A stretch of 64,000 bases of DNA from NCBI GenBank assembly GCA_021299455.1, contig JAJTGQ010000097.1:1-64000 (forward strand), in the 5' to 3' direction. Source of the DNA: Flammeovirgaceae bacterium. Its GTDB lineage: Bacteria; Bacteroidota; Bacteroidia; Cytophagales; Cyclobacteriaceae. Made by a program: the position numbers and the translations under genes. This document shows, piece after piece, positions 46,183 through 62,691 of the stretch; positions within the stretch are counted from its first letter, which is position 1, and each line of letters starts with the position of its first letter. The notes under the pieces were generated by a model that saw only the letters and a list, made by a program, of their open reading frames with translations, made no database searches and was not told the origin of the DNA.

Positions 46183-47070
46183 ATGGTTGGAGAACAAACC
46201 TACACGCTTATCGATGGAAAGAAAATATCGGCTGATATAAAAGCGGAAATTTCTCTTAAAGTAGTTGAGCGTAAAAATCAAGGCAAGAAAATACCACATT
46301 TGGCCATTATCTTAGTAGGCGATGACGGTGCAAGTCAAACGTATGTCGATCACAAAGTCAAGGCATGCAAAGAAGTGGGCTTTCATTACACCATGATGCG
46401 CTTTGCAGATACTATTGCTGAAGACAAGCTGATGAAGCACATTGATCAGGTAAACAAAGATCAAGATGTCGATGGATTTATTGTTCAACTTCCACTTCCT
46501 GCACATATCACAGTTGAGCGAATCACCGAGAAAATACGATCAGACAAAGACGTGGATGGGTTTACCAATCATAACTTTGGAAGCATTATTTCAAAAAATC
46601 CGTTGTTGATGCCGGCTACGCCATTTGGCGTAATGGAGTTGTTACGCAGATACAACATTGAAACAGAAGGAAAAAATTGTGTGATTGTTGGCGCCAGCAG
46701 GTTAGTGGGTGCACCATTGAGTATGATGTTGGTCGAGCAGGGCAGAGCAACAGTTACCATCTGTCATAAGTATACAGAAGACTTGGCCGCCTGGACAAGG
46801 CAAGCAGATATTCTAGTAGTCGCAGTGGGTAAGCCAGGACTCATTACTGGCAACATGGTAAAGGAAGGGGCTGTTGTTATTGATGTTGGCACTACGAGAG
46901 TGGAAGGCGCGCAATATAAAAATGGTTATAGTTTGAAAGGCGATGTAGAATTCAAAGAAGTCGCTCCCAAAACTTCTTTTATTACACCTGTTCCTGGAGG
47001 CGTAGGACCGATGACCATCGCTTCCTTGCTGATGAACACGCTGAAAGCATGCGAAAATTTGAACCCTTAG
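46183..47070 (+). CDS. folD: Methylenetetrahydrofolate dehydrogenase/cyclohydrolase
   Basis: VGDDGASQTYVDHKVKACKEVGF; DGFIVQLPLPAHI; VIVGASRLVGAPLSMML; PVPGGVGPMTIA. Confidence 0.97.
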   Translation: MVGEQTYTLIDGKKISADIKAEISLKVVERKNQGKKIPHLAIILVGDDGASQTYVDHKVKACKEVGFHYTMMRFADTIAEDKLMKHIDQVNKDQDVDGFIVQLPLPAHITVERITEKIRSDKDVDGFTNHNFGSIISKNPLLMPATPFGVMELLRRYNIETEGKNCVIVGASRLVGAPLSMMLVEQGRATVTICHKYTEDLAAWTRQADILVVAVGKPGLITGNMVKEGAVVIDVGTTRVEGAQYKNGYSLKGDVEFKEVAPKTSFITPVPGGVGPMTIASLLMNTLKACENLNP

Positions 47071-47111
47071 TTGCATTTTAGATTTGCGATTTGTGATTTA
47101 CGATTTGTACT

Positions 47112-47759
47112 TTGAATAAAGTGAAGCCAGATTCATCAAATCTAAAATCTCGAATCATAAATCAGGAATTGCCCCTGATGGAGGATTTCTACACCATTCA
47201 AGGTGAAGGTTTTCATCAAGGTACTGCTGCTTATTTTATTCGTTTGGGAGGATGCGATGTGGGCTGTGTGTGGTGCGATGTAAAAGAAAGTTGGGATGTG
47301 AATGCGCATCCGAAATTGCCTGTTTCCGTACTGGCGCAAAAAGCCAAGGAAAGTGGAAGCCAGGTTGTAGTAATTACTGGAGGCGAACCCGCCATGCATA
47401 ATTTGGAAAGTTTGACAAGTGAAATAAAACAGGTAGGGCTAAACACACACATTGAGACATCGGGTGTCTATCCGTTAACGGGAACTTGGGATTGGATTTG
47501 TTTCTCACCAAAGAAATTCAAGGCTCCCCATCCCTCTATTTTCGGCCAAGCCCATGAATTGAAAGTAGTTGTTTTTCATAAATCTGATTTTGACTTTGCT
47601 GAAGAATTTGCAGCTAAAGTCTCTTCTTCGTGTTTTTTGTATTTGCAGCCCGAGTGGTCGAAAGAAAATGAAATGTTGCCTTTGATTATTGAATATGTTA
47701 AGCGCAATCCCAAATGGAAGATTTCGTTGCAGGTTCATAAATACATGAATATACCCTGA
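47112..47759 (+). CDS. queE: 7-carboxy-7-deazaguanine synthase
   Basis: MEDFYTIQGEGFHQGTAAYFIRLGGCDVGCVWCDVKESWD (radical SAM); VITGGEPAMH. Confidence 0.93.
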   Translation: MNKVKPDSSNLKSRIINQELPLMEDFYTIQGEGFHQGTAAYFIRLGGCDVGCVWCDVKESWDVNAHPKLPVSVLAQKAKESGSQVVVITGGEPAMHNLESLTSEIKQVGLNTHIETSGVYPLTGTWDWICFSPKKFKAPHPSIFGQAHELKVVVFHKSDFDFAEEFAAKVSSSCFLYLQPEWSKENEMLPLIIEYVKRNPKWKISLQVHKYMNIP

Positions 47760-47775
47760 GCAAGAACAAGGGAAA

Positions 47776-48750
47776 ATGGATCTAAAGAATTTTAAGGAAA
47801 TGCTAAACGATTGGGGACATAATAAAGTCCCTTTTTTGTTTTTCATTGATTTTGAAATGCAAAAGCCGAAAGCCTGGCGGATTAACGAAATCAAATCGGA
47901 TGAGTTACTTTTTGAGATCAACGGATTTTCAAATGCCCCTAAAAGCAAAATAGGAAAAAATGCCAGTTTTAATTTGGAGATCGAATCCGGTTTGGATACT
48001 CAATACGAATCGAAATTTTCCAGAGTGATGCATTATCTCAATCGAGGGGATTCTTTTGTAACGAACCTAACCATCAAAACAAGGATTCACACCAATTACA
48101 CTTTGCGCGAACTGTTTTACTTTGGTAATGCGCGGTACAAGATCTGGCACAAAGAAGAATTCCTCGTTTTCTCTCCCGAAACATTTATCCAAATAAAAGA
48201 TCAAAAAATCTTTTCATTTCCCATGAAAGGAACCATTGATGCGGCCATACCCCATGCAAAAGAAAAAATCCTGGCAGACCAGAAAGAGTTGGCTGAACAT
48301 GTCACGATTGTAGACTTGTTACGAAACGACTTGAGTAGTGTTGCTTCTTCGGTCAAGGTGGAGCGGTTTCGCTATGTCGAAGAAGTCAAAACAAACGGCA
48401 AAAACTTGCTTCAGGTAAGTTCAGAGATACAAGGAGATTTGGCCCCCGATTATTCATCACATTTGGGCGATATCCTGTTTTCACTTTTACCGGCTGGTTC
48501 AGTAAGTGGGGCTCCCAAAGTAAAAACATGTCAGATTATACGAGAAGTAGAGGGCGAAAGTAGAGGCTATTACACAGGAATAGTTGGTTTTTTTGATGGT
48601 GTCAATTTGGATTCGGGTGTAATGATTCGATACATTGAAAAAACAGGAAATGATTTATTTTTCAGGAGTGGAGGAGGAATCACCACGCAGAGCAACGGAA
48701 AAGCAGAGTATCAGGAAGCAGTAGATAAGATTTATGTACCGGTTTATTGA
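47776..48750 (+). CDS. pabB: Aminodeoxychorismate synthase component I
   Basis: FSFPMKGTIDAAIPHAKEKILADQKELAEHVTIVDLLRNDLS; LLPAGSVSGAPKVKTCQIIREVEGESRGYYTGIVGFF. Confidence 0.93.
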   Translation: MDLKNFKEMLNDWGHNKVPFLFFIDFEMQKPKAWRINEIKSDELLFEINGFSNAPKSKIGKNASFNLEIESGLDTQYESKFSRVMHYLNRGDSFVTNLTIKTRIHTNYTLRELFYFGNARYKIWHKEEFLVFSPETFIQIKDQKIFSFPMKGTIDAAIPHAKEKILADQKELAEHVTIVDLLRNDLSSVASSVKVERFRYVEEVKTNGKNLLQVSSEIQGDLAPDYSSHLGDILFSLLPAGSVSGAPKVKTCQIIREVEGESRGYYTGIVGFFDGVNLDSGVMIRYIEKTGNDLFFRSGGGITTQSNGKAEYQEAVDKIYVPVY

Positions 48751-49330
48751 GACAATAAAACTGTTGGATGGACAATTCTTCAATCTGGACTATCACCAAC
48801 AGAGAATGGATCGGACTATCAAAAAATTCTTTGACCAAGAAAATGCTATCCATTTAAAGGAATATCTCGCATGCCAATCGTTTTTGACAGAAGGACTTTT
48901 TAAATGTCGGATTGTTTATGGCAAAACTATTTCATCATTGGAGTTTTTGCCCTATACGATCAAACCTGTCCGTTCATTGAAGGTAGTGCACGCTCATTCC
49001 ATTGAATACGCCTACAAGTTTGAAGCAAGGGACCAGCTACTAGAATTGTACAATCAAAGAGGACTACACGATGAAATAATAATCGTAAAAAATAACCTGG
49101 TAACGGATGCCTCCTATGCAAACTTGATTTTCTTTGATGGAAAATCCTGGTTTACTCCAAGCGCCTGTTTGCTAAATGGAACGATGCGACAAATTTTAAT
49201 CGATAAGCGAAAGATTAAAGCTGCTCAAATTTCGTTATCGGATATAACTAACTTTGAAAAAGTAAAGTTGATCAATTCAATGTTAGGCTTTGAGGGACCT
49301 GAAATCCCGATATCACAAATTGAGATTTAA
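48734..49330 (+). CDS. pabC: Class IV aminotransferase (4-amino-4-deoxychorismate lyase-like)
   Basis: FIETIKLLDGQFFNLDYHQQRMDRT; DEIIIVKNNLVTDASYANLIFFDG; overlaps pabB. Confidence 0.88.
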   Translation: MYRFIETIKLLDGQFFNLDYHQQRMDRTIKKFFDQENAIHLKEYLACQSFLTEGLFKCRIVYGKTISSLEFLPYTIKPVRSLKVVHAHSIEYAYKFEARDQLLELYNQRGLHDEIIIVKNNLVTDASYANLIFFDGKSWFTPSACLLNGTMRQILIDKRKIKAAQISLSDITNFEKVKLINSMLGFEGPEIPISQIEI

Positions 49331-51360: not shown

Positions 51361-54300
51361 ATGAGGAAAAATTTACTCCTTAAACTTTTGCCGCTTCTGT
51401 TCTTACTGGCAACCAGTATGGCATGGGCGCAAGAGAAAAGTGTATCGGGTAAGGTGACATCACAAGAAGATGGCACCGGACTACCTGGTGTAAACGTAGT
51501 AGTGAAAGGGACTACGAATGGTACGGTTACCGATGCAGACGGTAACTATACGATAAACGTTCCATCAGGTGGTGGAAGCTTGGTATTCTCGTTTATCGGG
51601 CTTTCTACGTCTGAAGTGGAGATTGGCGACCGCACTACGGTCGATGTGAGCCTTGGCTTGGATGTTCAGCAATTGTCAGAGGTAGTGATTGTGGGTCAGG
51701 GAGCGTCTAAAGACAAGAAGGCACTTGGTTACGCTATTTCTACTGTGGGGGCAGATCAGTTATCAGCTCGCCCTCAGCAAGACGTAGCACGCATTTTACA
51801 AGGTAAGGTGGCCGGAGTAAACATCTCACCAACGGGAGGTACTACTGGTTCAGGAGCCAGCATTAATATTCGGGGATATAGTTCACTAAGCGGTAATACT
51901 CAGCCACTATTCGTGGTAGACGGTGTTCCGTTCAGTTCATCCACCAACAACGGTTCTGATTTTGGGTCGGGAGGGGCTTCTGGTACGCCCAGTAGATTCT
52001 CAGATCTTGATCCAAATAACATCCAATCGATCAACGTATTGAAAGGCCTTGCAGCAACCGTTTTATACGGGGATCAGGGGCGAAATGGTGTTATTTTGGT
52101 CACCACTAAGTCGGGCAAAGGTAAGAAGAATGCAGAAGTGACTTTTCAGCAGACCGTTAATGTTACAGAAGTTGCTTCACTTCCAACTTTCCAAAACAGT
52201 TGGGGAAATGGATTTCAAGGTTTGTACGGTGCATTCTTTAGTAATTGGGGATCTAGCTTTTCTGAGATAGATTCAGTCGGACATCCCTATCAATTTTTGG
52301 GAACGCCTTCATTGAGAGATGCATACCCGCAGTATCTGTTCAGCCGTGTGAGATATGATGCAGGGCAAGACATTAGCAAGTTCTTTAGAAAGGGGCTGGC
52401 TTCAAATACCTATTTAAATTTTAGTGGGGGATCGGACAAGGTTGGATTTAACTCCTCAGTCTCTTATACTAAAGAGCAGGGTTTCGCTCCTGGCAATGAG
52501 CAGACTAAGTTAAACATTGCGTTAGGGCTCAATGCAGCCATCACCAAAAAGTTGTCCATCAACAATAACATCCAATTCTCTGTTAATAACATCGACCAGC
52601 CTCCGCTAAGTCCAGCAACGGGAGGTGGCGGTACGTTAGCAGGTGTGCCTTCACTGTATGGCCAATTTCTTTATACTCCCCGTAACCTGGATTTATTCGA
52701 ATGGCCAAACGCAACTCCCGATAATCGTAGCATTTACTACCGAGGAGGAAATGATATTGCCAATCCACTTTGGATCGCCAATAACTATAAAGAGTTAAAT
52801 AACACGGTACGCATTTTTAATGCAACCACGATTTCTTACGACATAACCGACAATTTTAGCTTAAGCTATAGGGTGGGCTATGACACGTATACCGAATCGC
52901 AAGAACGCAGATTCAACAGGGGAGGTACTCAGGGACCAAATATCATTAACGGAGTTTTCCAAACTCAAACTGTGAGGAATACCATCTTCAATCAAGACTT
53001 TATTGTTGGCTACAACAAACAGTTGACAACTGACTTGAACTTAAGTGCAAGGGTTGGTTTCAATGCTAGAAATGATAAATTTAATCGGGACGGCTTATAT
53101 TCTGAAAATCAAGCGATTGATGGTTTGTTTAGACATTATAACTTCTCAGTAGCTTCGTCCAGAAGTATCGGATTTGCTGGCTTCAGCGCAGATGGCGCCC
53201 GCATTCTAAATCGTGAAACCGAGGAACAACGCATGGGTGTTTATGGAGACTTTACCTTAGATTACAAGCAATACATCTTTTTGAATTTAGCGGGCAGAAA
53301 TGACTGGACTTCTACACTTGAGACTGCTAACAATAAGATATTTTACCCATCAACATCACTTTCTTTAATTCTTACCGAAGCTTTTTCATCACTCAAGTCT
53401 AGCGCTATGAGCTTTTTGAAGCTACGTGTCGGGTATGGAACTTCTGCTGGGTTTGCGCCCTTTCCTTATGGAACACGTTCATTGGCTTCTCTGAATACCC
53501 GGGGCTATGTAGATTTGACAGGTGCACCAACAACGGTTAACTCGGTTGGTAACTTCTTGGGAAATCGCAACCTTCGCCCAGAGCTTCAACAAGAAATTGA
53601 GGTGGGGATAGACGGTAAGTTCTGGAACGATCGGATCGGTGTAGACCTTACTTTCTATGATAGAAGCACAAGTGATTTGATTACTGAAGCTCCCTTGGAT
53701 CCTTCAACTGGTTATACCAGCACATTGACAAACGTTGGAAAACTGAGCAATAAAGGTATTGAACTTGGTTTGAATGCCAAGATAATTGGTTCTGGTGCTC
53801 TTCGTTGGGATGCCACACTAAATTACAATATTGTTAGACCTGAAATTATTGATTTGGGTGGAAGCTTATCTCAAGTTAGAATTGCAGGGCAAGACACACG
53901 AGGCAACTTTGCTGTTCCCGGAAGACCTTACAACATCATTAAAGGTTTTGCAGTACGCAAATCGCCTTCTGGCCAACGAATCGTAAGAGATAACGATGGC
54001 TTGTATGCGGTAGACCCAATCATCCGAGAGATCGGGAATCCAAATCCGGATTGGACGGCTTCACTCTTTAATACATTCACTTACAAGGGTTTTGCGCTTA
54101 ACATTCAGGTCGACTATCGTCAGGGTGGCGACATGTACGCATCCACTCCTTCGGCTACCATCGGTCGCGGAACAGTTTCAACCGATGTTGTGTATGGCTA
54201 TGATCAGACCTTTGTGCTTCCTGGCGTGTTAGAGACAGCCAACCCGGATGGCACGTTCACCTATCGTAAAAATGATAAACAGGTCACAGCTTCTGATTAT

Positions 54301-54603
54301 GGATTCAATGTGCAATTCAATGGCACAGATGATACCTCGATCTTTGATGGCACTTCAATACGTCTTCGAGAAGTTTCGTTGGCCTATGAATTCCCCAAGG
54401 GATTTTTGGCGAAGACACCATTCAAATCGGGGTCGCTCCAGTTGAATGGAAATAACCTATGGTTTAACGCTGTTAATGTACCAGCTAATGTTAATTATGA
54501 TCCTGAGGTCTTAAGTACAGGAGTAGGAAACGGTGCGGGGTTTGATTACTTGACGGGGCCAAGTGCTCGGAGATACGGTGTGGTGTTAAGGCTGACTTTT
54601 TAA
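51361..54603 (+). CDS. SusC/RagA-family TonB-linked outer membrane protein
   Basis: VSGKVTSQEDGTGLPGVNVVVKGTTNGTVTDADGNY; plug domain with FVVDGVPF...LKGLAATVLYGDQGRNGVILVTTKSGK. Confidence 0.97.
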   Translation: MRKNLLLKLLPLLFLLATSMAWAQEKSVSGKVTSQEDGTGLPGVNVVVKGTTNGTVTDADGNYTINVPSGGGSLVFSFIGLSTSEVEIGDRTTVDVSLGLDVQQLSEVVIVGQGASKDKKALGYAISTVGADQLSARPQQDVARILQGKVAGVNISPTGGTTGSGASINIRGYSSLSGNTQPLFVVDGVPFSSSTNNGSDFGSGGASGTPSRFSDLDPNNIQSINVLKGLAATVLYGDQGRNGVILVTTKSGKGKKNAEVTFQQTVNVTEVASLPTFQNSWGNGFQGLYGAFFSNWGSSFSEIDSVGHPYQFLGTPSLRDAYPQYLFSRVRYDAGQDISKFFRKGLASNTYLNFSGGSDKVGFNSSVSYTKEQGFAPGNEQTKLNIALGLNAAITKKLSINNNIQFSVNNIDQPPLSPATGGGGTLAGVPSLYGQFLYTPRNLDLFEWPNATPDNRSIYYRGGNDIANPLWIANNYKELNNTVRIFNATTISYDITDNFSLSYRVGYDTYTESQERRFNRGGTQGPNIINGVFQTQTVRNTIFNQDFIVGYNKQLTTDLNLSARVGFNARNDKFNRDGLYSENQAIDGLFRHYNFSVASSRSIGFAGFSADGARILNRETEEQRMGVYGDFTLDYKQYIFLNLAGRNDWTSTLETANNKIFYPSTSLSLILTEAFSSLKSSAMSFLKLRVGYGTSAGFAPFPYGTRSLASLNTRGYVDLTGAPTTVNSVGNFLGNRNLRPELQQEIEVGIDGKFWNDRIGVDLTFYDRSTSDLITEAPLDPSTGYTSTLTNVGKLSNKGIELGLNAKIIGSGALRWDATLNYNIVRPEIIDLGGSLSQVRIAGQDTRGNFAVPGRPYNIIKGFAVRKSPSGQRIVRDNDGLYAVDPIIREIGNPNPDWTASLFNTFTYKGFALNIQVDYRQGGDMYASTPSATIGRGTVSTDVVYGYDQTFVLPGVLETANPDGTFTYRKNDKQVTASDYGFNVQFNGTDDTSIFDGTSIRLREVSLAYEFPKGFLAKTPFKSGSLQLNGNNLWFNAVNVPANVNYDPEVLSTGVGNGAGFDYLTGPSARRYGVVLRLTF

Positions 54604-54611
54604 ATTAAAAA

Positions 54612-56729
54612 ATGACATTTTTTATGAGATATTTTAAAGCTTTTTCAATAGCTATGCTGATGGTGATTGCATCATCGTGCAATTTGGACTTATTAGATGA
54701 TCCAAACGCTGTCAAGCTTACAGCAACTGGGCCCAGTCTGGTTCTAAACCAGATTCAAGTTGATCTGGCGCAATTCTTTAACGGAGCCAGCACTTTCGGT
54801 ATGCAGGTGACTCGCCTTCAAAATTCTGGCGGAGCGTTCTATGAGAATTTTGCAAATCCTCAGACTTTCGATGCAATATGGACAAATGGATATGCCAATG
54901 TTCTTACAGATTGCGATATCTTGATTAAACAAGCAGATGCCAGCGGATTCTCGGTGCATGCAGGTATGGCTCGCGTAATGCAAGCCTATACGTTATCTGT
55001 TTTGGTAGACTATTTTGGCGATGTACCTTTTTCACAATCATTTAAAGGGTCTGAAAATCTCAATCCAGGAACCGATAGATCAGAAGATTTGTATCCAGTT
55101 ATCATCGCAATTTTGAATAGCGCAATCGCAGATTTTGCGAAAACCCCGAATGCTCTTGCCCCCGTTATCACAGATTTTTATTATGGAGGCGGGACAGCCG
55201 GAATAGCAAAATGGGTTCGGTTAGCCAATACACTGAAACTCAAGCTAGGTCTTAATTTAAAAAATCAGAATCCCACGTTGGCTACTACAGTAATCAATCA
55301 GGCATTGACTGCGGGAGTTATTACCGCTCAGGGAGATAGTTTCATTTTCAGATATGCCACCAACGGTGCCGACCCAGATGTTCGTCATCCCCGTTTTGTT
55401 AACAATTACATTACGGGTGCAAACGACTATATGTCGAATTATTTGATGTGGCAGATGTTTTACGGATATGATATGATTGATCCAAGGATGCGCTTTTATT
55501 TTTATCGCCAAAGAGCAGCTAATTCTACGGATCCAAATGAGATTCGTTGTGTAGCTCAAACTGCACCTGGTCATTATCCGTTTACGACTGGCACTGCCGT
55601 TGTGTATGGTGTGGCAGGCATTCCTCCAGGGATAACTTCGGCAGCGGGTAACCCTGCTTGGACGCGCACATTCTGCCAGCCAACACCTATTGGATATTGG
55701 GGTCGGGAACACGTGGATCCACAAGGCATCCCGCCAGATGGATTGGCACGTACTACGTGGGGTGCTTATCCAGCCGGGGGACGTTTTGATGCTAACACAA
55801 ATGCAGGAGTTAATAATCCCGCGTTGGGTATGAGAGGCGCAGGCATTCAGCCAATCTTAATGCGTTCTGCAGTAAACTTTATGCGCGCGGAGATTGCATT
55901 GTCTCCTACTTTATCTGGGGTAACTGGGGCGGGAACGGCTGCAGCGCAGTTTAATTTGGGCGTGACAAATTCACTTGCTGATGTCCGAGATTGGTCTATC
56001 AATGGTACACTTGGAACAAATGCATTTGGTGCTTCACCTGCGGAGACCTCAACTATCAATGGATTCTTTCCAACAGTTGGCACAACGTTAACGCCAGTAA
56101 GGGTAGCTTCCACAGGAAACGTGGCCATTGCAACGGGCGGATTGTTAACGATTGATGGGGTAGCATTGGCAGCCGGTGATCGTGTATTATTAAAGGATCA
56201 AACAACGGGTAGTCAAAATGGAATCTACGTGGCTGCGGCTGGCGCTTGGACTAGAGCATCTGACGCGGATATTCAAGCTGAACTTTTGGGTGCTACGGTT
56301 ACTGTCTCAGAGGGTACGACAAATATTACAGCGCGATTTGTGCAAATTACCACAGGTACAATAAATGTTGATACTACTACACCTCCAGCAACCACGATTA
56401 ACTGGAGATCACCACTTGCAGATGAAATCGCGAGATATACAACACGAGCCAATGCAGCTTTTGCAGCCGCAGGCCCCGATCAATTGAATATAGTCGCGCG
56501 CGAGTATTGGATATCGCTTTTTGGTTGCGGGGTTGAATCGTATAATCTTTATAGACGTACCGGTTTACCTTCGGGAATGCAGCCAACAGTAAACCCAGCA
56601 CCTGGAGCTTTTCCTCGCACGTTTTGGTATCCGACTTCATTTGAGGCAAGAAATTCCTCAGTTGAGCAGAAGCCAAACTTAACAGGTAAGGTTTTCTGGG
56701 ATACGTTTACGGCAAATCTGAATTTTTAG
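54612..56729 (+). CDS. SusD/RagB-family lipoprotein with internal foreign-looking module
   Basis: SSCNLDLLDDPNAV lipobox; SusD-like C-terminus AREYWISLFGCGVESYNLYRRTGLPSGMQPTVNPAPGAFPRTFWYP; internal segment 56097-56405 differs. Confidence 0.92.
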   Translation: MTFFMRYFKAFSIAMLMVIASSCNLDLLDDPNAVKLTATGPSLVLNQIQVDLAQFFNGASTFGMQVTRLQNSGGAFYENFANPQTFDAIWTNGYANVLTDCDILIKQADASGFSVHAGMARVMQAYTLSVLVDYFGDVPFSQSFKGSENLNPGTDRSEDLYPVIIAILNSAIADFAKTPNALAPVITDFYYGGGTAGIAKWVRLANTLKLKLGLNLKNQNPTLATTVINQALTAGVITAQGDSFIFRYATNGADPDVRHPRFVNNYITGANDYMSNYLMWQMFYGYDMIDPRMRFYFYRQRAANSTDPNEIRCVAQTAPGHYPFTTGTAVVYGVAGIPPGITSAAGNPAWTRTFCQPTPIGYWGREHVDPQGIPPDGLARTTWGAYPAGGRFDANTNAGVNNPALGMRGAGIQPILMRSAVNFMRAEIALSPTLSGVTGAGTAAAQFNLGVTNSLADVRDWSINGTLGTNAFGASPAETSTINGFFPTVGTTLTPVRVASTGNVAIATGGLLTIDGVALAAGDRVLLKDQTTGSQNGIYVAAAGAWTRASDADIQAELLGATVTVSEGTTNITARFVQITTGTINVDTTTPPATTINWRSPLADEIARYTTRANAAFAAAGPDQLNIVAREYWISLFGCGVESYNLYRRTGLPSGMQPTVNPAPGAFPRTFWYPTSFEARNSSVEQKPNLTGKVFWDTFTANLNF

Positions 56730-56752: not shown

Positions 56753-57880
56753 ATGAAATTTAAAAGATATAGTTTAGTTACAGCCTTACTTCTAACAGTA
56801 GTTGGAATTGGGTGTAGAGATAAGGACTTGTATCCGCTTCCTTACGATGACAGAGAGGTGGGTGCGTACATGCGTTTGTATTCACAAACTTCTAATGTGA
56901 TTGATTTGAATGACTTGGCAAATAGTGGATTGGACGGAACTTTTGAGGCTGTAGATGGTGCCGGTGGTAACAGTTTGCAGGAATTTCGGATTTTGGTTAG
57001 ACACCGTAGGGGTGCTGCTCTTTCCGGAGAAGTTCCTTTAACTACTATTGCTGGAGCTGACTTTGCCAAGGTGCCAGAGCCCACTTTCTCTGAGTACAGA
57101 CGGGCGAAGGTGAGAGTATCGGCCGCTCAAGCACTCACCGCTTTAGCGACAGCAACGGGCTTTCCGGGTTCATTCGCGAATGGTGATCAGGTTATTTACA
57201 GGGGTGTCATGGTGTTAAAGGATGGCAGACAGTTCACGGATACAAATACGACTCCAAACATCACTGGTGGACAATTCTATAGTGCATCTTTTGTGTACAC
57301 GTTAACTGTTCGGAATCAGACCACTTCGACTTCTTGGCTTGGGCAATACACTCTTGCTCAAACCGCAATTTGGTCGCCTAACCATTCCACTGCTTTGCAC
57401 GCGGCTCCTCAATTTCCGTCTACACTTGCTGCGCGGTTGTTTCCTAACCAAACCGTAACACTAAGCATTCCTCCCGGTGGCCTTTCTACCGAGCGGCAGT
57501 TTACCGTAAGTTATAGGGGACAAAATGTTACGCTACGATTTAACCTAGAAGCGGCTCCTACAACGGCTGCACCAACAGCTGGAACAGTTTTCGTACCGTT
57601 GCAGAATTCTACTGTTGATTGTACTACCGAAAGGGAGATTTATTGGACTCAGCCTACAGGTGGTACTTTTGGTACGGCTGCTGCCCCACCTCCTGCTTAT
57701 ACTAATCCTCTTTTGCCGTCAGGCACTACAGCCAACCAGGGTTCCTACAATACGTCTCAGACGGGTCTTGTCGCAGGTCAGTCACTTTCCATTGGCTTGG
57801 ATGATGATGCCGATGAGTATGGCAGAAGAAATGGCTATTGCACTTGGACAAGACGGGTTCGTTTGACGCTTACTCGCTAG
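56753..57880 (+). CDS. Hypothetical lipoprotein of the first SusCD locus
   Basis: VVGIGCRDKDLYPLPYDDREVGAYMRLYSQTSN; collinear with susCD. Confidence 0.8.
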   Translation: MKFKRYSLVTALLLTVVGIGCRDKDLYPLPYDDREVGAYMRLYSQTSNVIDLNDLANSGLDGTFEAVDGAGGNSLQEFRILVRHRRGAALSGEVPLTTIAGADFAKVPEPTFSEYRRAKVRVSAAQALTALATATGFPGSFANGDQVIYRGVMVLKDGRQFTDTNTTPNITGGQFYSASFVYTLTVRNQTTSTSWLGQYTLAQTAIWSPNHSTALHAAPQFPSTLAARLFPNQTVTLSIPPGGLSTERQFTVSYRGQNVTLRFNLEAAPTTAAPTAGTVFVPLQNSTVDCTTEREIYWTQPTGGTFGTAAAPPPAYTNPLLPSGTTANQGSYNTSQTGLVAGQSLSIGLDDDADEYGRRNGYCTWTRRVRLTLTR

Positions 57881-58077: not shown

Positions 58078-61000
58078 ATGAGGAAAAATTTACTAATCAA
58101 ATTGGTTCCGCTCTTGTTGCTGATCAGCAGCATGGCATGGGCACAGGAACGCATAGTTTCCGGGAAAGTGACTTCCGAGGGTATCGATCTCCCAGGAGTA
58201 AACGTGGTTGTAAAAGGTACCGGCTCAGGTACCGTAACAGATGCAAACGGAGCTTACAGCATTTCGGTCGGTAGTTCTGATGTTGTATTGACCTTTTCAT
58301 TTGTCGGCTATACTTCGCAAGACGTTGTAGTGGGTGACAGAAGAACTGTTGATGTAGTGTTACAATCCGATGTCAAGCAGTTGTCTGAAGTGGTGGTTGT
58401 AGCTTATGGAACAGCAGAGAAGAAATCACTTACAGGTGCGATTGCATCGATTAGCTCTTCATCGTATAAAGATCAGCCCGTTCGCGGTCTTGATCAGGCT
58501 CTTCAAGGACGTGTAGCAGGCGTGCAGGTATCCCAAAATTCCGGAACCCCAGGATCTGGTATTCAGGTTCGTGTAAGAGGTTCTTCATCACTTTCTGCAA
58601 GTAATGAGCCACTTTATGTTGTAGATGGTATTCCTATTAACACTGGTAGTTCTTCACAAATTGGTGTAGGTAACCAGCAAGTGAGTGCTTTGAACGATAT
58701 CAACCCCAATGACATCGAGTCGTTAGAAGTACTAAAAGACGCTGCCTCGGCTTCGCTCTATGGTTCTAGGGCAGCCAATGGTGTTGTTCTGATTACAACC
58801 AAAAGAGGTAAGTCGAACAAAACACAAATAAGCTTTAATGCCTACGCAGGCGTGCAGGATGTCTGGAAGAAAATTCAGCCATTAACTGGCGGTGACTATG
58901 TAAATATGCTGACGGATGGTTTAGTTAACCGTTATGGCGCAGGCACAGGAACAACAGCAAACCCACAAGGCGCATTAAATCCAGATGGTAGCGTTACAAC
59001 TCAAAGCCTTTTTGGATCAGGTGTTAGAACTTGGGCCTCTAGAAATCACTTAGCTGCTTGGTATTGGGGATTGAATCCTGCGTTGACTGTTAATGGCGCT
59101 GGCCAAACCGAGGTCATCCGAAATGGTGCCCCAATTGAAGTGAGTGATGTTGGGTTTTTCCTGGATCCTTCAACGGCTCCCTCGACCAACTGGCTAGATA
59201 AGGTGTTTCAGTCTGCGCCTATCTATAACTATGACTTGTCACTTTCTGGCGGTACGGATAAAACAAAATTCCTTGTTTCTGGTGGATACTTCAAGCAAGA
59301 AGGTGTTATTATCGGTTCAGGATTTGAAAGACTAACTGGTCGCATTAACTTGGACAACCGGGTGAGCGATAAGTTTACATTTGGTAGCACTACTTCGTTT
59401 TCAAGATCGGTGAACAATCGCGTCAATAACGATAACAATATTTTCGGTGTTTTATCAACTGCAGTATTAACGGCTGGTGATGTACCGGCATACACTTCAT
59501 CTGGAGCCTATGCTTTTGATCCTAGGAATTCAACGGACAATCCTATTGCGCAAGCGCGCGAGCCGCAAAATAAAGCTTACAATAATCGTTTCCTCAATAA
59601 CCTTTATGGTGAGTATTCATTCAATCCCAACTTGTCGTTTAGAACTTCGATAGGAATCGATTTTAGCTATTTCTCAGAAAATAGATTTATCCCAACCACG
59701 GTACGTCAGGGACTTCCCAATGGACAGGCTCAAGCGGGAACCAGCCAGGATATCAATTGGATCAACGAGAATATTCTAAGATACAACAAGACGTTTTCAA
59801 GTGATCATGCCGTTGACGTATTGCTGGGAACGTCCTTTCAAGAGTCTCAAAACAGAACAACTTTTGGATCGGTAACAGGATTTCCATTTAATTCCGTTGG
59901 TCAATTGTCTGCCGGTTCTACCAAAACAGACGCAACCAGCGCGGCTACTTCTTGGGCGCTTGTATCTTATTTTGCCAAGGCATCCTATGCTTACAAAGGA
60001 AAGTATATTCTTAACGCATCAATCAGAAGAGATGGTTCGTCAAGGTTCGGAAAAGAAGTTCAGTACGGAAATTTCCCTTCAGTCTCCGTTGCGTGGAATC
60101 TAAAAGATGAAGGGTTCATGGCCGATATAGGCGCTGTCAATAGTCTTAAGTTAAGGGGAAGTTGGGGTATCACGGGTAATCAAGAATTTGGGAATTTCAC
60201 CTATGCTGGATTGTACGGGATTGGTAATAACTATGTCCTAGCAGGAGGTTCTGCACCTTCCCAGCTTCAAAACACTAGACTGTCTTGGGAGGAAACCAGT
60301 CAAATAGATGTGGGGTTGGACATTGGACTTTTTAATAAAGTAAACCTCGTTATAGACTACTATAAGAAGAGTACTACTTCATTGTTGTTGAATCGTCCCA
60401 TTTTGGCCGTATCTGGATTCAATGCAATCGGACAGAATATTGGTGAGATGGAGAATAGTGGAATTGAGGTGGGCATTAATGCCACGCCAATTAGTTCCAG
60501 CAAAGGCTTGACGTGGACTACCGATTTTAATATCGCATTTAATAGAAACAAGATTGTTAGTCTTTCTAGCGATGTTCTCCCCTTTGGTGTAGGCTTTGCA
60601 AGTTGGGTAGAGGCTGGTCAGCCTTTAGGTGCATTTAGAGGGTACAGAAAAGTTGGTATTTTTCAGAACCAAGGTGAAATTGATGCAGCCAACGGAGGCT
60701 CCAAAACAGGTGTTTATCAATCCACTCTTACCCGTCCTGGAGATTTCAAATTTAAAGACATTGACGGAGACGGTGTAATTACAGGTGCTGACCAAGAGAT
60801 ACTGGGCAGCGCGCAGCCTGATTTTATCGGTGGCTGGAACAATAATTTGACCTACAAAGGTTTTGATTTCTCTTTCTTCTTCCAGTTTGTGCAAGGAAAT
60901 AAAATCTGGAATCATACCAGAGTTTTTGCCGAGGGGATGAATAGCATTTTCGGCCAATTCGAATCAACAAAAAGAGCTTGGACTCCTAACAATACAAACA

Positions 61001-61353
61001 CTGAAATTCCGAGAGCAGTGTTTGGAGATCCAAATAATAATAGAAGAAATTCAGACTATTGGCTAGAAGACGGTTCATTTATTCGCATGAAGAATATTGT
61101 TTTTGGATACAGCCTTCCAAGTTCTTTGGTCAACAAAATCGGACTATCAAGGTTTCGGGTCTATGCATCTGCACAAAATTTGTTCACGATTACGAAATAT
61201 TCTGGATTTGATCCAGAAGTGAGTACGTTTAGTTCTGGTAATAGTTTTCAGGGAAGTTCAAATACTACAGCCAATGCTGCCCCTGGAACTGACTTCTTGA
61301 CTTTCCCCCAATCTAGGACGGTGACAGTTGGTGTTAACTTAACTTTTAAATAA
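58078..61353 (+). CDS. SusC/RagA-family TonB-linked outer membrane protein
   Basis: VSGKVTSEGIDLPGVNVVVKGTGSGTVTDANGAYSI; YVVDGIPINTGS...LKDAASASLYGSRAANGVVLITTKRGK. Confidence 0.98.
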   Translation: MRKNLLIKLVPLLLLISSMAWAQERIVSGKVTSEGIDLPGVNVVVKGTGSGTVTDANGAYSISVGSSDVVLTFSFVGYTSQDVVVGDRRTVDVVLQSDVKQLSEVVVVAYGTAEKKSLTGAIASISSSSYKDQPVRGLDQALQGRVAGVQVSQNSGTPGSGIQVRVRGSSSLSASNEPLYVVDGIPINTGSSSQIGVGNQQVSALNDINPNDIESLEVLKDAASASLYGSRAANGVVLITTKRGKSNKTQISFNAYAGVQDVWKKIQPLTGGDYVNMLTDGLVNRYGAGTGTTANPQGALNPDGSVTTQSLFGSGVRTWASRNHLAAWYWGLNPALTVNGAGQTEVIRNGAPIEVSDVGFFLDPSTAPSTNWLDKVFQSAPIYNYDLSLSGGTDKTKFLVSGGYFKQEGVIIGSGFERLTGRINLDNRVSDKFTFGSTTSFSRSVNNRVNNDNNIFGVLSTAVLTAGDVPAYTSSGAYAFDPRNSTDNPIAQAREPQNKAYNNRFLNNLYGEYSFNPNLSFRTSIGIDFSYFSENRFIPTTVRQGLPNGQAQAGTSQDINWINENILRYNKTFSSDHAVDVLLGTSFQESQNRTTFGSVTGFPFNSVGQLSAGSTKTDATSAATSWALVSYFAKASYAYKGKYILNASIRRDGSSRFGKEVQYGNFPSVSVAWNLKDEGFMADIGAVNSLKLRGSWGITGNQEFGNFTYAGLYGIGNNYVLAGGSAPSQLQNTRLSWEETSQIDVGLDIGLFNKVNLVIDYYKKSTTSLLLNRPILAVSGFNAIGQNIGEMENSGIEVGINATPISSSKGLTWTTDFNIAFNRNKIVSLSSDVLPFGVGFASWVEAGQPLGAFRGYRKVGIFQNQGEIDAANGGSKTGVYQSTLTRPGDFKFKDIDGDGVITGADQEILGSAQPDFIGGWNNNLTYKGFDFSFFFQFVQGNKIWNHTRVFAEGMNSIFGQFESTKRAWTPNNTNTEIPRAVFGDPNNNRRNSDYWLEDGSFIRMKNIVFGYSLPSSLVNKIGLSRFRVYASAQNLFTITKYSGFDPEVSTFSSGNSFQGSSNTTANAAPGTDFLTFPQSRTVTVGVNLTFK

Positions 61354-61359
61354 TCATCT

Positions 61360-62691
61360 ATGAAAAAAATATTTTATATCGTTTTGTTTGCCGTTGTTCT
61401 AACAGGTTGCGATTCGTTGCTTCAGGAGCAAAAGCCACAGAATAGCGTGGATCCCACCGTTGTGTTTAAAGATGCACCTGGTGCAAGAGCAGCAATTATA
61501 GGTGCTTATGATGCACTGCAAAGCGCCTCGTATTATGGAGTAGATTTCTTGCTTCTTCCCGAAGTGCACGGTGGAAATCTTAGCCATACTGGCACGTTTC
61601 CTTCTTACGCGCAGTTTGCCAACAGAAGCCTTTTGAACGACAATGCCAATGTGACAAATATGTGGGCTCAGATTTATGTAGGTATCAACCGCGTGAATCA
61701 GATTATCGATAAAGTGCCAAAAATCACAGATCCTGCATTAACACAAGCGGAAAAGGATCAAATCGCGGGAGAGGCACTTTTCTTGAGAGCTCTTCATTAT
61801 TCGAATCTTGTTAAGTATTGGGGTGGCGTACCATTGAAGCTTACACCATCCGATGATGCAAGTCCTTCAAAGATCATTTTACCAAGAGCTACGAAGGATG
61901 CTGTTTATGCACAGATATTAGTTGACCTGGCGGAAGCAATAGTTAAATTGCCAGCCTCTCCATCTAATAAAGCAAGAGCTTCTCAGGCTGCTGCACACGC
62001 ATTGAAGGCAAGAATACATTTGTACCTAGGTCAATATACTGAAGCCATCAATTCAGCTACGTCAGCAAGCACTGGTTATTCATTAGTTGGAAATTTCTTA
62101 GATCTGTGGGTGGTAAGAAATACTTCTGAGGCTATTTTTGAACTTCAATTCAACACGGTCGACACAAACTCTTTAAGCTTTTACCTACTTACTTCGTCCA
62201 CCGGTGGTCGGAATGAAGTGAGGCCTTCTGGCGGGTTAGTGAGTGCGTATTTGGGAACGGACGCAAGAAGAATTCTTTCCACCTCTGTTGATTCAAGATT
62301 GCGTTATTATCGCGCAGCAACGGATGATGATAACGTTCTTTTACTTAGACTGGGAGAGGTTATCCTAAACAGAGCGGAAGCATTGGTTGAGAGAAATACG
62401 GGATCAGATTTAACGGATGCCGTCACGTTCTTGAATCAAATTCGCAACAGAGCTGGGATTGGGAATTATTCAGGTGCTTTAACTCAGACTGCTGTTAGGG
62501 ATGATATTTTCTTACAACGTAGATTAGAGCTAGCGCTTGAAGGACATTATTTCTTTGACTTAGTTAGAACTGGGCGTGCTGCAACAACACTGTCATCACC
62601 GATTTGGAACAATGACCAAGCACTGCTTCCTATACCGTTAAGAGAGCTAAATGCTTCTGGTGGTATTTTGACTCAAAATCCAGGTTACTAG
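61360..62691 (+). CDS. RagB/SusD-family lipoprotein
   Basis: VVLTGCDSLLQEQKPQNSV; AEALFLRALHYSNLVKYWGGVPL; LRLGEVILNRAEALVE; RRLELALEGHYFFDLVRTGR. Confidence 0.96.
   Translation: MKKIFYIVLFAVVLTGCDSLLQEQKPQNSVDPTVVFKDAPGARAAIIGAYDALQSASYYGVDFLLLPEVHGGNLSHTGTFPSYAQFANRSLLNDNANVTNMWAQIYVGINRVNQIIDKVPKITDPALTQAEKDQIAGEALFLRALHYSNLVKYWGGVPLKLTPSDDASPSKIILPRATKDAVYAQILVDLAEAIVKLPASPSNKARASQAAAHALKARIHLYLGQYTEAINSATSASTGYSLVGNFLDLWVVRNTSEAIFELQFNTVDTNSLSFYLLTSSTGGRNEVRPSGGLVSAYLGTDARRILSTSVDSRLRYYRAATDDDNVLLLRLGEVILNRAEALVERNTGSDLTDAVTFLNQIRNRAGIGNYSGALTQTAVRDDIFLQRRLELALEGHYFFDLVRTGRAATTLSSPIWNNDQALLPIPLRELNASGGILTQNPGY

Follow-up and report, generated by a model that had tools for sequence, protein, structure and literature searches.

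A phage virion-type domain within the SusD-like lid of an outer-membrane importer, scattered among relatives in one genus

Phages and bacteria trade domains, and a gene in the window, the stretch of 64,000 nucleotides of Flammeovirgaceae DNA analyzed here, raises the question of whether such an exchange has reached the lid of a nutrient importer. The gene (positions 54612–56729, + strand), delineated by its open reading frame, Pfam matches, and orthologue comparison, encodes a SusD-like surface lipoprotein of 705 aa. A lipobox (...VIASSC, with C23) can be read in its sequence and in those of its orthologues; the latter begin at the second ATG (M5), which is probably the start codon here as well. 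The protein scores 137.6 bits against the SusD-like_2 family (PF12771), for which the curated cut-off is 27. The matches cover an N-terminal part at residues 36–300 (54717–55511, +; E 7e-40) and a C-terminal block at residues 605–674 (56424–56633, +; E 4e-6) that corresponds to family positions 345–415, which indicates that SusD sequence resumes directly after an intervening module. The first-pass annotation had placed a phage tail-fibre-like module at residues 496–598 (56097–56405, +) of this reading frame, with ordinary SusD sequence on both flanks; the coordinates are exact, and the two PF12771 matches bear out the description of the flanks. Alignments define a short linker leading from SusD into the module (residues ~489–495, part of PTVGTTLTP; 56076–56096, +), preceded in the orthologue alignment by an indel-tolerant loop (residues ~465–488, GTLGTNAFGAS...INGFF; 56004–56075, +). 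The loop is rich in N, P, and T and shows insertions or deletions of as many as ~20 residues in genomes G440, G025, and G427.

The gene is part of an operon. Immediately upstream lies its partner, a SusC-like TonB-dependent transporter of 1080 aa (51361–54603, +; CarbopepD_reg_2 and Plug domains), and the adjoining position of SusC and SusD is kept in seven relatives. The third gene encodes a 375-aa putative lipoprotein (56753–57880, +), which in relatives adjoins SusD with and without the module, so that the susC–susD–lipoprotein order is the same in carriers and non-carriers. This putative lipoprotein has no Pfam match; a near-invariant DDDADEYGRRNGYC motif lies close to the C-terminus of the window gene product and of its relatives, and products from other clades exceed those of the window clade by ~80 aa in length. 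By Pfam scan, a second SusC-like transporter (58078–61353, +) and a second SusD (61360–62691, +; PF07980/PF14322) follow, both without the module. No carbohydrate-active enzymes were found among the neighboring genes scanned, and the genomic context therefore does not indicate a glycan substrate. Upstream of the operon, at 46183–49330, is a folate-type cluster with folD, a radical SAM gene, and pabB-like and pabC-like genes; pab-like genes were found in genome G036 too.

PHROG profiles, tblastn searches of phages, the predicted fold, and matches in the BFVD collection all assign residues 496–598 to a domain of phage virions, present here in complete form. Searched alone, the module matched the PHROG profile for virion structural protein best (E 8e-28), followed by those for head decoration (3e-23) and for tail fibre (2e-22), PHROG 24595 and 2647 being virion structural and head decoration families and PHROG 11518 a tail fibre family. 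The PHROG matches span about residues 1–95 of the 103-residue module, with E-values between 1e-27 and 1e-20 among the matches. In tblastn searches, 300 phage records from many host groups were recovered, with identities reaching 57% across ~80 aa, and together with the PHROG values these place the likeness to phages far beyond chance. A scan of viral contigs with a single protein as query returned 385 related stretches in one scan, and no SusD-like frame was present among the viral open reading frames fetched from such scans. The PDB yielded only two entries in a profile search, 9efk orf22 (E 3.6e-9) and, as the stronger match (E 1.5e-15), the "capsid decoration protein" 9nx3. The phage similarity claimed in the first pass was thus recovered, and a phage virion domain it is, but "tail-fibre-like" is too narrow a label, since the top-scoring profile, and likewise the best relative with a solved structure, belongs to virion structural or capsid decoration proteins. 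The accompanying description as a repeated module mostly fails, because more than one copy occurs in only three of the fetched viral open reading frames (L173, L110, and L137, with two or three copies per chain). No Pfam or NCBIfam model gave a meaningful match over the module, an annotation gap for a family present in hundreds of phages.

The insertion has the same borders as the phage domain, which starts at VRVATT..., after ...GLDxKxS, and stops at ...GTTxxxW. Neither the upstream phage flank (...ATKxYVD..GLDxKxS) nor the downstream one (FSGAGQITAG...) is present in SusD. Foreign base composition was not seen in the module (GC 0.47 versus 0.45 for the gene; GC3 0.33 versus 0.36).

Modeled alone by AlphaFold from 51 aligned modules, the segment forms a compact domain of several strands (pLDDT 92, pTM 0.87). 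In a comparison of predicted model against predicted model, Foldseek returned 91 viral matches in BFVD at E ≤ 0.001, with TM scores of up to 0.87; many superimpose with an rmsd of 1.1–1.4 Å over ~110 residues and are named tail fibre, Stf repeat, or capsid decoration. With the PDB as target, Foldseek found no significant match for the module. The full-length SusD model is of low quality (mean pLDDT 56), too low for positioning the module against the ligand-binding face, and contains helices on either side of the module, which is predicted to sit between a helix ending near residue 483 and a helix starting near residue 601. These predicted helices and the preceding indel-rich loop argue for a surface turn as the site of insertion, and indel tolerance and secondary structure suggest that the loop bearing the module is exposed outward on SusD.

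The module is complete in 5 of the 63 genomes of the genus, always inside this SusD, and two public metagenome-assembled genomes (a Flammeovirgaceae MAG and Bacteroidetes SZAS-64) are among the carriers. In a sixth carrier, G014, SusD is cut by the contig end, yet the same domain begins there. An assembly chimera can be ruled out, with the module at the same place in five separate assemblies, and the absence of a second copy in the window's own genome, where the module is single-copy, eliminates a prophage in that genome as the source. Most orthologous operons in the genus are without the module; 11 close orthologues lack it cleanly and have an unbroken site that reads FYPA/ATYTxDV or similar (INAFYPA/ATYTxDV; the slash marks the junction), which defines the borders and establishes that close SusD homologues do not all hold the segment. 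The site is also unbroken in G008, the direct sister of the carriers G009 and G438, with a SusC that is 90% identical and a SusD that is 80–81% identical to theirs. No further SusD carriers were found in partial and overlapping samples of the family (397 genomes), order (392), class (395), and phylum (398); the matches in these samples fall mainly in tail-fibre-like genes or other long virion-like frames. A weaker copy, L221 in genome G586 of the same family, lies close to the N-terminal end of a frame of ~1,200 aa that resembles a contractile-injection-system baseplate protein.

Outside phage-like genes, observations of the module are confined to this SusD in a single genus, bacterial matches having been only partly traced to prophages. 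Since the domain is otherwise widespread in phages of unrelated hosts, transfer from phage to SusD is the likely direction. That a phage-type domain was captured into SusD, as the first pass had proposed, is nearly certain given the phage matches and the close orthologues without the segment, and the empty orthologous sites and scattered distribution make the finding stronger than was stated there. In a tree of SusD with the module left out, carriers fall in three places, and the AU test rejects their union in one clade (p 9e-6, or p 1e-22 when G014 is left out). The SusC tree mirrors the SusD-core tree in shape and independently rejects a single carrier clade (p 1e-5). The same loop would therefore have gained such a domain at least twice, or one cassette would have moved between SusD genes; more than one acquisition, or lateral movement of the module, in the genus is accordingly considered probable.

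The module has not decayed in its new setting. Its dN/dS between G009 and G438 is 0.08, and within the window clade its pN/pS of 0.14–0.17 resembles that of the SusD core, with synonymous sites near saturation. The window copy also retains all positions that are invariant among 52 aligned modules. Judging from these sequence comparisons, purifying selection acts on the module as it does on its host, and the module is being maintained.

A scheme for its origin and role can be drawn from these observations and from known systems. SusD forms the lid of a pedal-bin importer (PMC7782687). Several phage decoration proteins raise surface attachment by binding host-surface carbohydrates (PMC7602432), and phage Douge has surface domains that attach to host glycans (PMC13033339). 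In the proposed scheme, a ~100-aa virion surface domain of the tail-fibre or capsid-decoration type would have entered a loop of the SusD lid by illegitimate recombination, the acceptor being susD of the conserved operon and the insertion falling between the helices near residues 483 and 601. It would then have been kept as a folded, selected module, and the same loop would have acquired such a domain at least two times in the genus, or one cassette would have moved between SusD genes. Displayed outside the SusC–SusD "pedal bin," the module may keep ligands of a polymeric or cell-surface kind (probably glycans) close to the transporter, in the way that comparable domains hold virions to host-surface glycans. 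By this analogy, the most likely function is auxiliary binding of ligands or glycans at the lid, although this is held with a little less than even confidence. The "adhesin-like" nature suggested in the first pass is made plausible by the role of such domains on virions, where the module could also be structural or oligomerising. Taken together, capture, repeated gain or movement, and auxiliary binding form an explanation whose chances are about evenly balanced.

Other histories can be set against repeated acquisition. The idea that the segment belonged to the SusD core from the start and was lost by other members draws on its presence in the closest relatives and on nothing else. It would demand that loss recreate the same unbroken junction in several separate lineages, and because non-carriers of such lineages share that one junction, gains are likelier than losses; moreover, the SusD and SusC trees would need more losses than gains, and PF12771 does not include the domain, which is common in phages. 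On the strength of the empty orthologous sites, this reading was rejected and retains hardly any probability. A more serious contender is a single capture followed by scatter among SusD genes of the genus through short-tract recombination. G014 and G009/G438 have a linker in common (FYSLNY[V/L]G..TP(V)), though module-less lineages separate them; linkers of the window clade read VGT..TPVRVA, whereas phage proteins mostly have KQS, KAS, or KDS at that spot; and a single module clade for the carriers is not rejected (AU p 0.113). The module tree itself leans toward separate captures: the two complete carrier groups stand apart, are united in 0% of 200 bootstrap trees, and are nearest to different phage modules. 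Nor is similarity between G009 and G014 raised in the SusD blocks flanking the module, as tract recombination would lead one to expect. A single capture is accordingly a real possibility, with roughly one chance in three.

The function is contested as well. The module might be a tolerated passenger, a spacer, or a multimerising element without a ligand of its own, and its site next to a loop that admits indels as long as ~20 residues, together with the maintenance of module-less orthologues in the same operon, fits such a role. Retention of the invariant positions and purifying selection at the level of the SusD core speak against it, as does the persistence of the module across species at ~80% amino-acid identity while synonymous sites are near-saturated, and this role is judged rather unlikely. 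Still less probable is phage interference, by which a virion-like domain would occupy the surface glycan used by incoming phages or mask the SusCD complex. The module is indeed the same kind of domain that virions display, and SusC and SusD are mentioned together with phage receptors in papers on Bacteroides, but its fixation within a nutrient transporter operon counts against a defensive role. Auxiliary binding on the lid stays the preferred and simplest reading of function.

No prior description of a virion surface domain moved into the lid of a nutrient importer was found in the literature searched, which comprised open-licence papers, and a SusD lid with a captured phage domain is, within that literature, a variant so far not found described. 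The orthologue pairs with and without the module, G008 against G009 and G438 with a SusC that is nine-tenths identical, make its function directly testable by comparison. A domain so common in phages, for which Pfam and NCBIfam have no model, can now be given a name and examined apart from virions. A broader and more doubtful proposition is that a single loop of the lid serves recurrently as an acceptor site, into which binding domains of phage virions have been captured repeatedly and independently, as interchangeable capture modules for outer-membrane import. If recurrent capture is true, bacteria re-use surface-binding parts of phages in outer-membrane import.

Compared with other SusD-like_2 (PF12771) lids of SusCD importers, the window protein is alike in its N- and C-terminal homology, lipobox, and adjoining SusC, and differs by the addition of a ~100-aa phage virion domain ahead of the conserved C-terminal block. 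PHROG 24595, 2647, and 11518 are homologous to it along the full module and agree in predicted fold and in domain borders; theirs is found in virion proteins, often after ATKxYVD...GLDxK, whereas the window copy lies not in a phage structural gene but inside susD of a conserved operon, in a transporter lid. To PDB 9nx3 and 9efk orf22 the module is related as a sequence-profile homologue, with weak pairwise similarity. The glycan-binding phage decoration proteins and the Douge domains, which supply the analogy for function, have other folds (for example, Ig-like) than the module.
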